In this document: positions 25,837-39,723 of the stretch, piece after piece
Numbering within the stretch: the stretch's first letter is position 1
Layout: the number at the start of each line of letters is the position of its first letter
Assembly (NCBI GenBank): GCA_030529825.1
Contig: JAUMWD010000001.1
Location: 162,935 to 226,934, forward strand
Direction: 5' to 3'
Source: Bacillota bacterium
GTDB taxonomy: Bacteria > Bacillota > Clostridia > Oscillospirales > Oscillospiraceae
DNA length: 64,000 bases
Made by a program: the position numbers and the translations under genes
The notes under the pieces: generated by a model
The model's input: only the letters and a program-made list of their open reading frames with translations
Databases searched by the model: none
Told to the model about the DNA's origin: nothing

Positions 25837-25865
25837 TTGATTGAAGCGGAATAATACATTATAAT
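25837..25865 (+). promoter_or_regulatory. predicted promoter of the TetM-like gene
   Basis: TTGATT (25837-25842), 17 bases, TATAAT (25860-25865). Transcription would start about 25872, downstream of the earliest in-frame start at 25864, which supports translation from 25897. Confidence 0.6.
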
Positions 25866-25896: not shown

Positions 25897-28413
25897 ATGA
25901 AGAAAATCGTGCTGGGTGTGCTCGCCCATGTGGACGCGGGCAAGACCACCTTATCCGAGGCTCTGCTCTACACCTGCGGAAGCATCCGCAAGCTGGGCAG
26001 AGTTGACCACCGAGATACCGCCCTTGACACTCATGAGCTTGAGCGGCAGAGGGGAATAACCATATTTTCGAAGCAGGCACAGCTCAAAACCGAAAAGGCG
26101 GAGCTGTGTCTCCTTGACACGCCGGGACACATGGACTTCTCCACGGAAACGGAGCGTACCCTGCAGGTGCTGGACTATGCGGTGCTTGTAATTTCCGGCA
26201 CTGACGGCGTACAGGCACATACGGAAACTCTGTGGCGCCTGCTTAAAAAGCATGCCGTTCCCACCTTCATATTCGTAACAAAAATGGATATCCCCTGCTG
26301 TGACCGCAGGGCGGTCATGGATGACATCCGCGCCCGCCTTGATGAAAACTGCCTTGAGCTTGAGGACACCGAGGCGGTTGCCGTGTGCGACGAAGCCGCC
26401 CTTGAGCATTACATGGAAAGCGGCAGCCTTTCCGCGGATGATATTTGCAGACTAATAAGCGGGCGAAAGCTTTTCCCCGTGCTTTTCGGCTCCGGTCTTA
26501 AGCTTGAGGGCGTGGACAAACTCATTGAATATCTTGAGGATTATACTCTTGAGTCCCAATATCCCGAGGTCTTCGGCGCAAAGGTCTATAAAATGATGCG
26601 GGATAATCAGAATAACCGTCTCACCTGCATGAAGATAACCGGAGGAAGCCTGAAGATAAAAAGCACTCTCCGCTATCTTGACCGTCAGGGAAATCCCGTG
26701 GAGGAAAAGATAAACGGCATCCGCATTTATTCGGGAACAAGGTTTGAGAGCGTTGACGAGGCCGCGGCAGGCACCGTCTGCGCCGTGCAGGGACTTTCCG
26801 AAACCTATATCGGTCAGGGCCTTGGCTTTGAGGAAAACAGCGATGCTCCCGAGCTTGAGCCTGTGCTTGCCTACCGCGTAAATCTCCCCAAGGGCGCCGA
26901 CCCGCGCACCGCCCTGCAGAAGCTCCGCATTCTTGAGGATGAGGATCCCATGCTCCGCCTTGTGTGGAATGAGCAGCTGCGGGAAATCCGCATTCAGCTC
27001 ATGGGCGAGGTGCAGACGGAGATTCTCCGGGACATCATCAAAGAGCGCTTCGACATGGAGGTCACCATTGACCACGGCGGTATCATGTATCGCGAAACCA
27101 TAAAAGCGCCCGTGGAGGGTGTGGGCCATTTTGAGCCTCTGCGCCATTATGCGGAGGTGCATCTTGCCCTTGAGCCCCTTGAAAGGGGCGCAGGACTTGC
27201 ATTTTGCAGCCATTGCCCCGAGGATGAGCTTGACCGCAATTGGCAGAATCTAATTCTCACCCATCTTTACGAAAAAAAGCATTTGGGCGTCCTCACGGGC
27301 TCACCCGTAACGGATATGAAAATTAGCCTCATCGCAGGCAGAGCCCATGCCAAGCATACCGAGGGCGGTGACTTCCGTCAGGCGGTTTACCGCGCTGTGC
27401 GTCAGGGACTTATGAAGGCGGAAAGTGTTTTGCTTGAGCCCTGGTATTCCTTCCGCATTGAGGTGCCGACGGAAACCGTAGGCCGCGTCATAAGCGATGT
27501 GCGTGCCATGTGCGGAAGCTTTGACACGGACTCCACCCCCGATGGCAGCTCCATTGTGACGGGACTTGCCCCTGTGTCCGAAATGAACGGCTATGCCGCC
27601 CTTCTCATGGGCTTCACCCACGGCAAGGGCAGAATTTCCTGCCGCCTTGATGGCTATTACCCCTGCCATAACGCGGAAAAGGTCATTGCGGAAAAGGAAT
27701 ATAATCCCGAGGCGGATTTGGAAAACACCCCCGATTCCGTGTTCTGCTCCCACGGCGCAGGTGTGAATATAAAGTGGAGCGAGGTTGAAAGCCATATGCA
27801 CATTGACACGGGCTTCGGCAGGGAAAAGGAAGCTGCCCCCGTGTACCGCCCGCGAAATTTCAGCCTTGACGATAAAGAGCTTGAGGCCATCATGGAGCGC
27901 GAATTCGGACCCATTCGCCGCAGAGAATATACAAAACCCGTGAACACGCAAAGCGGCGAATTTCTCGTTGCGCCCACGAAGCGCGAATATCTCATAATTG
28001 ACGGATATAATGTTATTTTCGGCTGGGACGAGCTGAAGGAAATGGCAAGGCACAGCCTTGACGATGCCCGTGAAAAGCTCCTTGATATGCTCCGCAGCTA
28101 CCGCGGCTTTAAGGATTGTGAGCTTGTGCTGGTGTTTGACGGCTACAAGGTGCAGGGCAACCCGGGCGAAAAATTCGACAGCGGCAAGGTGCATATAGTG
28201 TACACAAAGGAAAACGAAACGGGAGATATGTACATCGAAAAGCTGGCAAACGACATAGGAAAAAACTATTCCGTGCGTGTTGTCACCAATGATTCCCTCA
28301 TTCGCCTTTCCGCGTTGCGAAGTGGCGTGCTGCGAATGTCAAGCCATGAATTCATAAACGAGCTGCAATATGTTTTAGAACAGATTTCGGGTTATACAGA
28401 TGGAAAACGATGA
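25897..28413 (+). CDS. TetM-like translational GTPase fused to a YacP/Rae1 NYN nuclease domain
   Basis: The start was set at 25897 (MKKIVLGVLAHVDAGKTT); the longer frame begins before the predicted transcript. Of 838 residues, 1-640 form an EF-G/TetM-type factor: P-loop AHVDAGKTT, switch GITIF, DTPGH, TKMD and domain IV-like RAHAKHTEGGDFRQAVYRAVRQGLM. Residues about 694-838 are a complete NYN domain: YLIIDGYNVIFGWDEL, LVFDGYK, YTKENETGDMYIEKLA and VVTNDSLIR. These match B. subtilis YacP/Rae1, which cuts mRNA in the ribosomal A site. The fusion suggests ribosome rescue or stress cleavage more than tetracycline resistance. It overlaps ylmH. Confidence 0.88.
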   Translation: MKKIVLGVLAHVDAGKTTLSEALLYTCGSIRKLGRVDHRDTALDTHELERQRGITIFSKQAQLKTEKAELCLLDTPGHMDFSTETERTLQVLDYAVLVISGTDGVQAHTETLWRLLKKHAVPTFIFVTKMDIPCCDRRAVMDDIRARLDENCLELEDTEAVAVCDEAALEHYMESGSLSADDICRLISGRKLFPVLFGSGLKLEGVDKLIEYLEDYTLESQYPEVFGAKVYKMMRDNQNNRLTCMKITGGSLKIKSTLRYLDRQGNPVEEKINGIRIYSGTRFESVDEAAAGTVCAVQGLSETYIGQGLGFEENSDAPELEPVLAYRVNLPKGADPRTALQKLRILEDEDPMLRLVWNEQLREIRIQLMGEVQTEILRDIIKERFDMEVTIDHGGIMYRETIKAPVEGVGHFEPLRHYAEVHLALEPLERGAGLAFCSHCPEDELDRNWQNLILTHLYEKKHLGVLTGSPVTDMKISLIAGRAHAKHTEGGDFRQAVYRAVRQGLMKAESVLLEPWYSFRIEVPTETVGRVISDVRAMCGSFDTDSTPDGSSIVTGLAPVSEMNGYAALLMGFTHGKGRISCRLDGYYPCHNAEKVIAEKEYNPEADLENTPDSVFCSHGAGVNIKWSEVESHMHIDTGFGREKEAAPVYRPRNFSLDDKELEAIMEREFGPIRRREYTKPVNTQSGEFLVAPTKREYLIIDGYNVIFGWDELKEMARHSLDDAREKLLDMLRSYRGFKDCELVLVFDGYKVQGNPGEKFDSGKVHIVYTKENETGDMYIEKLANDIGKNYSVRVVTNDSLIRLSALRSGVLRMSSHEFINELQYVLEQISGYTDGKR

Positions 28414-29149
28414 ACTTATAAAACGGGCGGAGGACCTGCGGGCAAGATGCGAAAGGCAGGTCTGCGTCACCCACACGGCATTTCTCACCCCTGCGGAGCA
28501 GTATGCCCTTGAAAAATGGGCAAAATTTACCCCCGATTGCAAAATGCTTCTTTTCGGCGGCCATGAGGAATGTGAGCGCAAGGCGGCCTTCTTCCTGCCC
28601 TTTTACATGGAGAAAGAGGACTTTGACGCCTCGGAGTATATTTCCGTGCTTCGGGCGAAGGCAGGCTTCGGTGAGCCGGGGCATAGGGACTATATGGGGG
28701 CGATTCTCGGCCTGGGCATAAAGCGCGAATGGCTGGGAGATATATGGGTCAAGGGGGAAACGGCGGAAATCTTCTGTCTTCCTTCGGTGGAGCGCCATTT
28801 GCTGGACAGCCTTGATAAGGTGGGAAGATACGGCGTTAAAATGAGCAAGGCGTCACTTAATGAGCTTGAAGCACCGCAGCGCAAGGTAAAGCATGTGACC
28901 TTTTCCGTCAAATCTCTGCGCTTTGATGCCGTCGTTGCAGGAATGTTCAATCTATCCCGCACCGCGGCGGCAGGCTATATCTCCGCAGGCGATGCAAGCC
29001 TCAACTACTCCCAGTGCCTTAAGACCGATGCTCCCGTGCATGAGGGCGATGTCATTTCTCTTCGGGGCTGCGGCAAGGGAATCGTGGGTGCCGAGGGCGG
29101 AAAAAGCAGAAAAGACCGCATTTTCGTAAACGCGGACATTTTTAAATAA
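28400..29149 (+). CDS. ylmH: YlmH-family S4 RNA-binding protein
   Basis: The 249-residue product has the YlmH N-terminal globular part (PAEQYALEKWAKFTPDCKMLLFGGHEECERK), GDIWVKGETAEIFC in the middle, and an S4 domain from about 172 (LRFDAVVAGMFNLSRTAAAGYISAGDASLNY). In Bacillus, YlmH binds ribosomes and overlaps in function with RqcP in quality control of stalled large subunits. The start lies 14 bases inside the upstream TetM-Rae1 gene. This coupling supports a shared role in dealing with stalled translation. The usual division-gene neighbours of ylmH are absent. Confidence 0.88.
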   Translation: MENDELIKRAEDLRARCERQVCVTHTAFLTPAEQYALEKWAKFTPDCKMLLFGGHEECERKAAFFLPFYMEKEDFDASEYISVLRAKAGFGEPGHRDYMGAILGLGIKREWLGDIWVKGETAEIFCLPSVERHLLDSLDKVGRYGVKMSKASLNELEAPQRKVKHVTFSVKSLRFDAVVAGMFNLSRTAAAGYISAGDASLNYSQCLKTDAPVHEGDVISLRGCGKGIVGAEGGKSRKDRIFVNADIFK

Positions 29150-29181
29150 AAAAAGTCCCTGACAGGTGTCAGGGACTTTTG
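29150..29181. terminator. bidirectional terminator
   Basis: The stem AAGTCCCTGAC/GTCAGGGACTT is flanked by A- and T-runs, between ylmH and rny. Confidence 0.82.
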
Positions 29182-29186
29182 ATTTT

Positions 29187-30728
29187 TTACTTTGCGTATT
29201 CAACGGCCTTGGTCTCACGGAGAACGTGAACCTTGATCTGACCGGGATAGGTGAGCTCTTCCTCGATTTTCTTTGCGATATCTCTTGCGAGGAGAACCAT
29301 CTGATCCTCGTTGACCTCTTCGGGCTTGACCATGACGCGAATTTCGCGGCCTGCCTGAATTGCATAGCTGCCTGCGATACCGGGGAAGCTCTTGGAGATT
29401 TCCTCAAGCTTTTCAAGGCGCTTGACATAGTTTTCAATGTTCTCGCGTCTTGCACCGGGACGGGATGCGCTGATTGCATCGGCGGCCTGAACGATGCAGG
29501 CAACCAGAGTGCGGGGCTCAACATCGCCGTGGTGTGCCTCGATTGCGTGGATGACGGCTTCGTTTTCGCGGTACTTCTTTGCAACGTCAACACCGATGGT
29601 GACATGGCTGCCCTCGACCTCGTGGTCAATGGACTTGCCGATATCGTGCAGGAGACCTGCGCGCTTTGCGGTGTTCACATCGGCACCCAGCTCTGCGGCG
29701 ATAAGGCCGGCAATGTGGGAAACCTCGATGGAGTGCTGCAGCACATTCTGACCGTAGCTGGTACGGTACTTCATGCGGCCCAGGAGCTTTACGATCTCCT
29801 GATTTACGCCGTGGATGTTGGTTTCAAAGACAGCTCTTTCGCCCTCAGACTTGATGGTGGCGTTAACTTCCTTCTGTGCCTTGGCGTACATCTCTTCGAT
29901 GCGTGCGGGGTGGATTCTGCCGTCGGCAATGAGCTTTTCCAGAGTGAGACGGGCAACCTCGCGGCGCACGGGGTCAAAGCTGGAAACGGTGATTGCCTCG
30001 GGTGTGTCATCAATAATGAGGTCGCAGCCGGTGAGAGTTTCAATGCTGCGGATGTTGCGGCCCTCGCGGCCGATGATGCGGCCCTTCATCTCGTCGTTGG
30101 GGAGAGGTACGACGGAGACGGTGACTTCGCTTGCATGGTCGGCGGCACAGCGCTGGATGGCGGTGACAATGATTTCTCTTGCTCTGTCCTCTGCCTCTTC
30201 CTTGTACTGTGTCTCGATTTCCTTGACCTTAACGGCCATTTCATGGGTTACTTCGTCCTTAAGGGCATTGATGAGGTAAGCCTTTGCTTCCTCTGCGGTG
30301 TAGCCGGAGACCTTTTCCAGCATCTCCAGCTGGCTCTTCTTGATAAGTGCGATTTCCTCCTGCTGGGTTTCAATCGCGGCTATCTTCTGGTTCAGGGTTT
30401 CGGTTTTGCGTTCGAGGGAATCAGTCTTGCGGTCAAGATTTTCTTCCTTCTGCTGCAGGCGTCTTTCCTGCTTCTGCAGCTCGGCACGGCGTGCCTTTTC
30501 CTCGCGCTCATACTCCGCGCGACTTTTGTGTATTTCTTCTTTTGCTTCGACGAGAGCTTCTCTCTTCTTGCTCTCGGCGCTCTTTATGGCGTCGTTAATT
30601 ATTCGTTTTTCTTCTTCTCTTGCTTTTTTAAGAACTCCTTCAGCGCTTTTTTCACTGCGCAGGATGCTTATAACAAATCCGATTACGAATGCAACAACAA
30701 TCAGAACGATTGATAACCATAATTCCAT
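29187..30728 (-). CDS. rny: ribonuclease Y
   Basis: The 513-residue enzyme has an N-terminal TM anchor ([21 protein letters not shown]) and a long coiled coil (about 30-190). The KH domain follows with [29 protein letters not shown], and the HD nuclease domain with [14 protein letters not shown] and EAHHGDV. RNase Y starts bulk mRNA decay at the membrane of Firmicutes. I chose the ATG at 30728, eleven bases after GGAGG; an upstream GTG overlaps the ribosome-binding site. It is convergent with the TetM-Rae1/ylmH pair, so this locus groups RNA-decay and ribosome-linked functions. Confidence 0.95.
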
Positions 30729-31049
30729 AGAAGTAAACACACCTCCATTCTTTAAGAATTTTGTGGTGGTTTTCTGTGCTGGGTTTTGCTGTGGCTTGCT
30801 GTGATATTAAATTAATCTAGCGAAAGACAGACCATCAAGCGTATCTGTCCGAAAAATTGTAACTAATATTCAAACGGTGCCTCCCCGGGCATCGTAAATA
30901 TTATCCGATTTATTTTAGCCCGAATGCGGAGTTATGTCAAGTGTTTATACAATAATATATTAAATAATATTAAATATTTGTATGGGCTTTCCGGCCTTGT
31001 AGACAGGCCGATGAAAATCGGGTATAATCAAGGGGAGGTGATTATACCC
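30729..31049. other. divergent promoter region of rny and the PMT-like gene
   Basis: This AT-rich gap shows no gene. It holds a weak hairpin at 30823-30849 (GACAGA/TCTGTC) and a TAGACA-17-TATAAT pair (31000-31028) reading rightward, whose start would fall very near the next ribosome-binding site. Confidence 0.4.
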
Positions 31050-38097: not shown

Positions 38098-38160
38098 CTG
38101 TTGCACTAAACTGTGCAAAAAATGCCGCTGTGGAGCCTATGGGTGAGAGGTGATAGGAAA

Positions 38161-38478
38161 ATGAAGGACAAAAAGTCCCGGAAAGCCGATGAGCTTCTGA
38201 AAATGCTTGCCGAGTCCTCTCCCAATGACGCGGTGAAGCTCCTGTTCCTCGGGGAAGAGGACCTGTCAATCCTTGACGGCCTCGACCTGTCTCTCATCAG
38301 CGAAATCAAGCGCAGTCCCAGCGGGGCTGTGGAAATGAAGTTCGTTGACAGACTTGCCGTACTGCGGGAGCTGCTTGAGCTGAAAAAGGCGGACGAAAAG
38401 CAGCGTGACGACGGCAAGAGTATTTTTGCTGCTCTGGACAGAGCAGCACAGCAGCTTAAATCGGAGGAGAAAACCTAA
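38161..38478 (+). CDS. terminase small subunit-like protein
   Basis: The 105-residue helical, charged protein starts at ATG 38161 after a GGTGATAGGAAA site; an upstream in-frame ATG at 38113 lacks one. Motifs are weak, but position directly before the large terminase and a C-terminal coiled-coil-like stretch (VDRLAVLRELLELKKADEKQRDD) fit a DNA-recognising small terminase or its replacement. No classical helix-turn-helix is obvious, so packaging specificity could be relaxed. It ends at the TAA just before the TTG start of the large subunit. Confidence 0.55.
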   Translation: MKDKKSRKADELLKMLAESSPNDAVKLLFLGEEDLSILDGLDLSLISEIKRSPSGAVEMKFVDRLAVLRELLELKKADEKQRDDGKSIFAALDRAAQQLKSEEKT

Positions 38479-39723
38479 TTGAAGTTTGACAGCTTTTCAA
38501 AAACACAGCTAAAGGCGCTGTCCTGGTGGAGCGATTCATCACCCTACGCGGATTATGACGCAATCATCTGCGACGGCGCCGTGCGCAGCGGCAAAACCCT
38601 GTGCATGGGCATTTCCTATGTGTGCTGGGCCATGCGGCGCTTTGACGGCATGCGCTTTGCCTTCTGCGGCAAAAGCACAGCCTCTGTACGGCGAAACATG
38701 ATCGAGCCTCTGCTGCCCGTGCTGACGGACATAGGCTTTGAGGTAAAAGAGCTTGTGAGCAAAAACTATATGGATGTTTCCTACATGGGACGTACAAACC
38801 GCTTTTACCTCTTCGGCGGAGTTGACGAAAGCTCCGCCGCCCATATCCAGGGCATGACCTTGGCAGGCGTGCTCATGGATGAGGTGGCGCTCATGCCACG
38901 TTCCTTTGTGGAGCAGGCCTGCGCGAGATGCTCCGTGGAGGGCTCGAAGATGTGGTTTAACTGCAATCCCGAGTCGCCGCGGCACTGGTTTTACCAAGAG
39001 TGGATTTTGAAGGCTGAAAGCAGAAACTGCCTGTACCTGCACTTTGCTCTGGAGGATAATCCCTCACTGTCCCGAAAGATTATCGCCCGCTATAAGAGTA
39101 TGTACACCGGCGACTTCTACCGCCGCTTCGTGCTGGGCGAGTGGGTGTTGCCCCAGGGCAGAATTTACGACTTCTTCGATGAAAGCATGCAGACAGACCC
39201 GCCGCCGGATTGCACGGATTTCGCTATGTCCTGCGATTACGGCACCGCAAACCCCAGCTCCTTCGGCTTCTGGGGACTGAAGGACGGAATCTGGTACAGA
39301 CTTCGGGAGTATTATTACGACTCCCGAAAAGAGGGAAGGCAGAAAACCGACGCGGAATATGTCGCGGAGCTTAAGAAGCTCTGCGGCGAAAATGCCCCTT
39401 CCCGCGTCATTGTTGACCCCTCCGCCGCCAGCTTCATAAGCGCCCTTCAAAGGGAAGGTATTCACGCGCAGAAGGCGGATAACGATGTGCTCAAGGGCAT
39501 AAGGCTCACCGCAGATGCGCTGAAAAGCGGCAAAATCAAAATCTGCCGCGGCTGCCGTGACCTTCTGCGGGAAATATGTGAGTATCGCTGGGACGAGTCA
39601 AAGGACCGCGAGGCGCCATATAAATTCGGCGACCACGCCATGGACGATATGCGCTACTTTGTCACAGCCCTCAGCGAAAATCCGAGCCCCTTCGGCGCGG
39701 TCTGGATAGATAGGAGGAACTGA
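38479..39723 (+). CDS. phage terminase large subunit
   Basis: Translation probably starts at TTG, ten bases after GGAGGA. The 414-residue protein has the ATPase Walker A-like CDGAVRSGKTLCMG near 31-44 and Walker B VLMDEVAL near 133. The RNase H-like nuclease part has SCDYGTANPSSFGFWG near 250 and VIVDPSAASF near 312, with a late aspartate cluster (GDHAMDDMRYF) near 391. All catalytic blocks look intact, so it should package DNA into proheads. It resembles PBSX/terminase_3-type enzymes. Confidence 0.92.
   Translation: MKFDSFSKTQLKALSWWSDSSPYADYDAIICDGAVRSGKTLCMGISYVCWAMRRFDGMRFAFCGKSTASVRRNMIEPLLPVLTDIGFEVKELVSKNYMDVSYMGRTNRFYLFGGVDESSAAHIQGMTLAGVLMDEVALMPRSFVEQACARCSVEGSKMWFNCNPESPRHWFYQEWILKAESRNCLYLHFALEDNPSLSRKIIARYKSMYTGDFYRRFVLGEWVLPQGRIYDFFDESMQTDPPPDCTDFAMSCDYGTANPSSFGFWGLKDGIWYRLREYYYDSRKEGRQKTDAEYVAELKKLCGENAPSRVIVDPSAASFISALQREGIHAQKADNDVLKGIRLTADALKSGKIKICRGCRDLLREICEYRWDESKDREAPYKFGDHAMDDMRYFVTALSENPSPFGAVWIDRRN

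Follow-up and report, generated by a model that had tools for sequence, protein, structure and literature searches.

A translational GTPase fused to a Rae1-type nuclease domain in gut Clostridia appears to stand apart from the Tet(M) family

Does a translational GTPase that carries its own ribonuclease domain protect the ribosome from tetracycline, or does it perform another task there? This question is raised by a gene in a 64,000-nucleotide stretch of DNA (the window) from an Oscillospiraceae genome, GCA_030529825.1 (contig JAUMWD010000001.1, positions 162,935 to 226,934). A YacP-like NYN domain was previously reported to have been acquired by Tet proteins of ten clostridial species, and an RNase-based resistance mechanism was suggested (Atkinson 2015, PMC4342817). 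Since the described architecture, a Tet/EF-G-like GTPase joined to a YacP-like NYN in Clostridia, matches ours, the window fusion almost certainly belongs to the same family. The architecture itself is already known and functionally unstudied, as the initial annotation had supposed. Text searches that only partly covered the Rae1 literature found no study of a Tet-NYN fusion after Atkinson 2015, and Condon 2018, on the distribution of Rae1, may already mention it. While the 2015 work made a domain observation, read as a possible resistance mechanism, we describe a separate, widespread subfamily with a non-Tet tip that is largely exclusive with stand-alone Rae1. What is new, within the literature covered, is that the GTPase is assigned outside Tet(M), that its tree gives the fusion one origin, that the fusion and stand-alone Rae1 nearly exclude each other, and that the distribution is so wide.

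The fusion gene (25897..28413, plus strand) encodes 838 amino acids in a frame that is open throughout and contains all EF-G/Tet domains together with a complete YacP/Rae1 NYN domain, confirming that an EF-G-family GTPase and a full NYN reside on one polypeptide. Two starts are possible, at 25864 and 25897, with the stop at 28413. We prefer the MKK start at 25897 because the -10 element of a promoter-like site ends at 25865; this site (TTGATT-17-TATAAT, 25837..25865, plus strand) is a consensus match only, of a kind found no more often than in shuffled sequences.

Pfam profiles placed the domains along the plus strand as follows. The G domain (GTP_EFTU, residues 4-216, 25906..26544, E=1.5e-49) keeps the AHVDAGKT, DTPGH and KMD motifs. 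EF-G domains 2 (residues 228-303, 26578..26805) and III (residues 321-391, 26857..27069) were both detected, domain 2 marginally under its own cut-off (26.3 vs 27). Domain IV (EFG_IV, residues 396-509, 27082..27423, E=1.5e-18), the most conserved domain of the fusion, and domain V (EFG_C, residues 511-593, 27427..27675, E=1.5e-16) are followed by a tail motif, Y..D..N...SVFCSHGAG...W......MH (residues 602-635, 27700..27801). A linker then leads to the NYN domain (NYN_YacP, residues 699-831, 27991..28389), which scored 139 bits against a cut-off of 24.6 (E=1.9e-40). This match covers profile positions 1-135 of 166 only, and the C-terminal segment of Rae1 appears to be missing or diverged in the window's NYN.

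Structural comparisons agreed with this layout. The GTPase part matched TetM (PDB 3j9y) with E=1.5e-72 and the same domain order, and the NYN part matched B. subtilis Rae1/YacP (PDB 5mq8/5mq9) with E=8e-21. An AlphaFold2 model built on 64 sequences (mean pLDDT 84.7) predicted a folded GTPase body, disordered segments at residues 644-659 and 676-693 flanking a short helix, and a folded NYN at 697-834. The helix (residues 657-670, 27865..27906, plus strand), in the region of ELEAIMEREFGPI, is found in fused proteins only, and the tether from the tail motif to the NYN spans 60-134 residues among them. Foldseek matches of the model were EF-G structures, many of them ribosome-bound, and ribosome-bound TetM.

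The initial annotation had proposed a survey of the family, and among the best 80 relatives from a scan of GTDB genomes all 80 were full fusions of about 830-1000 residues. Their hosts are Oscillospiraceae, Ruminococcus flavefaciens, Lachnospiraceae and other Clostridia, making the fusion far commoner than the 2015 report suggested. Because of the E-values, the shared architecture of these relatives and a low NYN dN/dS, the fusion is no chance reading frame; it appears to be a physical GTPase-NYN fusion kept by selection.

The resemblance to TetM invites the reading proposed in 2015, that of a tetracycline ribosomal-protection protein to which an RNase domain has been added. The shared domain order and the fold match favor it, as do the PGAP labels "TetM/TetW/TetO/TetS family" in Agathobacter rectalis and Ligilactobacillus salivarius, and like TetM and TetO the fusion has EF-G-like domains G and II-V and predicted binding to the factor site. 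However, the tip of domain IV tells against it. In the window, residues 481-495 (27337..27381, plus strand) read GRAHAKHTEGGDFRQ, while the TetM counterpart is GLYYSPVSTPADFRM. Throughout the subfamily, the tip GRAHxKHTEGGDFR replaces GLYYSPVSTPADFR of TetM; in the same tree the group reads GRAHxKHT(E)GGDFR, and TetM/W/O-type proteins read GLYYSPVSTPxDFR. This loop is nearly invariant in fused and unfused members alike, with two divergent sequences (L154 and L156) departing from it in part. TetM residues 507-510, YSPV, correspond to H-x-K-H in the family, and TetM Pro509, a tetracycline-site residue in contact with C1054 (PMC8161019), aligns to Lys486 of the window protein. Of 81 fusions, 80 have this lysine, and every one has His484, His487, Thr488, Gly490, Gly491, Asp492, Phe493 and Arg494. 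The loop by which TetM displaces the drug is thus replaced by another, which makes tetracycline protection by the fusion unlikely, to judge from these alignments.

Curated models led in the same direction. On the NCBIfam tet_protect model the window protein reached 387 bits against a cut-off of 775, and four unfused sisters reached 397-468 bits, whereas the true Tet neighbours used as controls exceeded it (L149, 1001 bits; L151, 853 bits). The SVFCSHGAG...W core of the tail motif is specific to the subfamily, being common to the unfused sisters and absent from the aligned Tet proteins. Neither is the protein an ordinary EF-G: it shares the five-domain fold, and His484 aligns to the histidine at the tip of EF-G domain IV, but it scored 286 bits on the EF-G equivalog TIGR00484 (cut-off 659), falls in its own subfamily and carries a nuclease. 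The tip histidine of EF-G matters for translocation.

A maximum-likelihood tree of the GTPases, from a quick search that included two long-branch rows, grouped all 31 fused proteins in a clade with an SH-aLRT of 100 and a single NYN gain. Its near neighbours are 21 unfused proteins, each some 650 residues long, and a long branch separates these 52 from Tet and EF-G. The NYN-only tree, too short to settle a single origin alone, required two changes when free and was not worse when the fusions were held together (p-AU 0.57). We conclude that the GTPase tree points to a single origin of the fusion, and that by these tests the window GTPase represents a distinct subfamily, TetM-like in fold and outside the Tet(M) family. 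On the tip loop and the curated NCBIfam score we reject membership of the Tet(M) family. The term "TetM-like" in the initial annotation thus held for the fold and was misleading for function, the tip loop being replaced subfamily-wide. The spread through Oscillospiraceae, Ruminococcus and Lachnospiraceae also looks like that of a lineage gene rather than the scatter of a resistance gene. Together with the separate clade of the fused GTPases and the lysine at the position of the drug-site proline, this leaves a resistance protein with an added RNase as a highly improbable account.

These results bear on how such genes are named. One member is called "translation factor GTPase family protein" at NCBI and others "TetM/TetW/TetO/TetS family", a label that looks wrong for the subfamily on the alignments above. 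Members so annotated lack the drug-displacing loop and may inflate resistome counts. A 933-residue relative of fusion length in the cultured human gut species Agathobacter rectalis (L164, 1474-4275) is annotated as a tetracycline resistance protein, likely a misannotation. An unfused GTPase relative with 48% identity, on a megaplasmid of Ligilactobacillus salivarius (L163, 1486-3420), adjoins rpsN; its annotation is that of a TetM-type resistance protein. One genome (G204) carries two unfused GTPase copies (L132 and L133), both with the subfamily tip. A further Tet-like group (L143, L144, L146, L147, L148 and L150) has a third type of tip, roughly HHxVHTHPxDF, and the two members tested (L143 and L150) fell under the NCBIfam Tet cut-off.

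Is the attached nuclease intact? Its acids D702, D748, D777 and D799 are the equivalents of Rae1 D7, D53, D81 and D104. The initial annotation had described a Rae1-type NYN with intact motif acids and had named loss of the catalytic acids as the finding that would count against it. We looked for such loss and did not see it: every one of the 81 fused and 24 stand-alone sequences has all four acids, and the most divergent fusions checked keep them. Also invariant in both sets are the YN of DGYN, R30, T74, I84, E85 and G115. An apparent loss of DGYN in two fusions (L154 and L161) proved to be DAYN and DGFN, with the acids kept. Between the window and two near relatives, NYN dN/dS was 0.06-0.12 with dS near saturation, similar to the GTPase domains. 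One genome has the fusion divided over two reading frames, with the break inside the NYN (G088:C45:40759-43283; 766 and 269 residues), which may reflect a sequencing error, decay or a frameshift. Unlike Rae1 of Bacillus subtilis, a stand-alone protein of about 170 residues, the window NYN is borne by a GTPase and is without most of the Pfam C-terminal segment.

The intact nuclease has to be weighed against the possibility that the protein is a translation factor first, a back-up translocase or rescue GTPase of the KHTEGGDFR subfamily, to which the NYN adds no joint function. Unfused sisters with the same tip and tail motif occur in at least 19 class-level genomes, and two more in the window's own family (G069 and G036, about 650 residues, without NYN); the position of the L. 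salivarius copy beside rpsN suits this account too. Six of these 19 genomes have no listed Rae1 match, and therefore the GTPase may act without a nuclease. However, every complete fused-clade sequence checked retains an NYN with all acids, purifying selection on it resembles that on the GTPase, and no clear recent loss of the NYN was seen in the fused clade. We regard an NYN without joint function as unlikely. In the other 13 of the 19 genomes the unfused sister is accompanied by a separate Rae1, which is a Rosetta-stone pattern. The stand-alone Rae1 and unfused GTPase genes were not adjacent wherever positions could be compared, and no operon precursor of the fusion was found there.

The fusion and stand-alone Rae1 rarely share a genome. 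A search of the window's genome for NYN_YacP found the fused domain and no other, hence no separate Rae1. Among 100 genomes of the window's family, 61 carry NYN_YacP and 63 the GTPase subfamily, with co-occurrence in 61 of 63. Neither was found in the remaining 37, and therefore the function is dispensable. Across 293 class-level genomes, NYN_YacP lies mostly in frames of about 170-216 or about 850-950 residues; among the matches listed, which cover 149 genomes, 85 were fused, 60 stand-alone, 1 both and 5 in intermediate open frames, and four class-level genomes in all had two NYN hits. This split fits replacement of Rae1 by the fusion, although common descent accounts for part of it and it does not amount to an independent statistical test.

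What might the fusion do at the ribosome? In EF-G/Tet-type GTPases, domain IV comes to lie in the decoding region. For B. subtilis, Rae1 is described as an enzyme that cleaves A-site mRNA (PMC12320835). On balance, we lean slightly towards the fusion being a ribosome-dependent endoribonuclease delivered by a specialised EF-G-family GTPase, which would cut A-site mRNA on paused ribosomes and pass these on to tmRNA-SmpB or RQC. In its GTP-bound state the fusion would occupy the ribosomal factor site, its domain IV extending into the decoding region. The flexible linker would let the NYN reach mRNA at or close to the A site and cut it, probably on ribosomes that are paused or have no tRNA there. 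GTP hydrolysis would release the factor, and the truncated complex would pass to tmRNA-SmpB or, after splitting, to RqcH, joined by YlmH in the window's clade. In these bacteria the fusion would fill the role that stand-alone Rae1 has elsewhere. We have shown the anatomy and infer ribosome binding, A-site cutting, the trigger and the order of events. The window's genome encodes tmRNA, SmpB and an NFACT-R (RqcH-type) protein; tmRNA, SmpB and an RF3-like GTPase (534-residue frame) adjoin one another elsewhere in it (G000:C15:9716-12858).

The substrate could be different. A GTPase-gated processing or quality-control enzyme might dock on the ribosome or a subunit, where its NYN would trim or inactivate rRNA or tRNA and not mRNA. 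NYN domains were first proposed to act in rRNA/tRNA maturation, a proposal cited in PMC4342817, and a tether of 60-134 residues could reach several targets. Against this, the closest characterised relative, Rae1, cuts A-site mRNA, and the fused NYN has the acids and other invariant positions of Rae1. We consider an rRNA or tRNA target rather unlikely and return to A-site mRNA as the preferred substrate. In its fullest form, which we put forward tentatively and with somewhat less than even confidence, the proposal is that of a dedicated translational GTPase, the KHTEGGDFR subfamily, which would use domain IV to sense what occupies the A site, or its condition, and bring its own nuclease into place for cutting the mRNA there, an unstudied class of rescue factor in gut Clostridia that mostly lack a separate Rae1. 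If true, GTPase-driven A-site entry and mRNA cutting would be combined in one polypeptide, offering a handle on how Rae1-type enzymes find their target ribosomes. Many gut Clostridia, among them the culturable Ruminococcus flavefaciens and Agathobacter rectalis, would then have it as a quality-control enzyme.

The gene that follows the fusion is ylmH (28400..29149, plus strand), predicted to encode an S4-family RNA-binding protein. As first annotated, its start overlaps the end of the fusion by 14 bp (28400-28413), and a terminator-like hairpin follows (29151..29180). Because of this overlap and the hairpin after ylmH, the two genes seem to be transcribed together as a short unit. The ylmH product contains YlmH_RBD (E=3.3e-12, 47 bits vs cut-off 23), as does YlmH of B. 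subtilis (PMC11317155); a C-terminal S4 domain was looked for, with no Pfam S4 match at E<=1 and a weak MTRES1_C match over residues 168-221. The initial annotation had suggested that the fusion and YlmH belong to a single ribosome-clearing or mRNA-cutting machine, but as a general feature the link to ylmH did not survive comparison. Overlapping ends of the fusion and ylmH were found in 18 of 80 loci, all close to the window, and other genes follow the fusions of Ruminococcus and Lachnospiraceae. Outside the window's clade we therefore reject the link; the genetic association is limited to one lineage, in which YlmH would at most be an operon partner of the fusion. No partner gene conserved across the family was found among neighbours, which vary by lineage, in a rough survey based on crude ORF picks.

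The RNase Y gene rny (29151-30740, minus strand) converges on the fusion-ylmH unit, with the terminator hairpin in common. Three genes of RNA decay or the ribosome are thereby brought together, probably by coincidence. Further downstream (38113-39723 and beyond), an ORF resembling the large subunit of a phage terminase (38479-39723), preceded by a small ORF, is possibly the start of a prophage.
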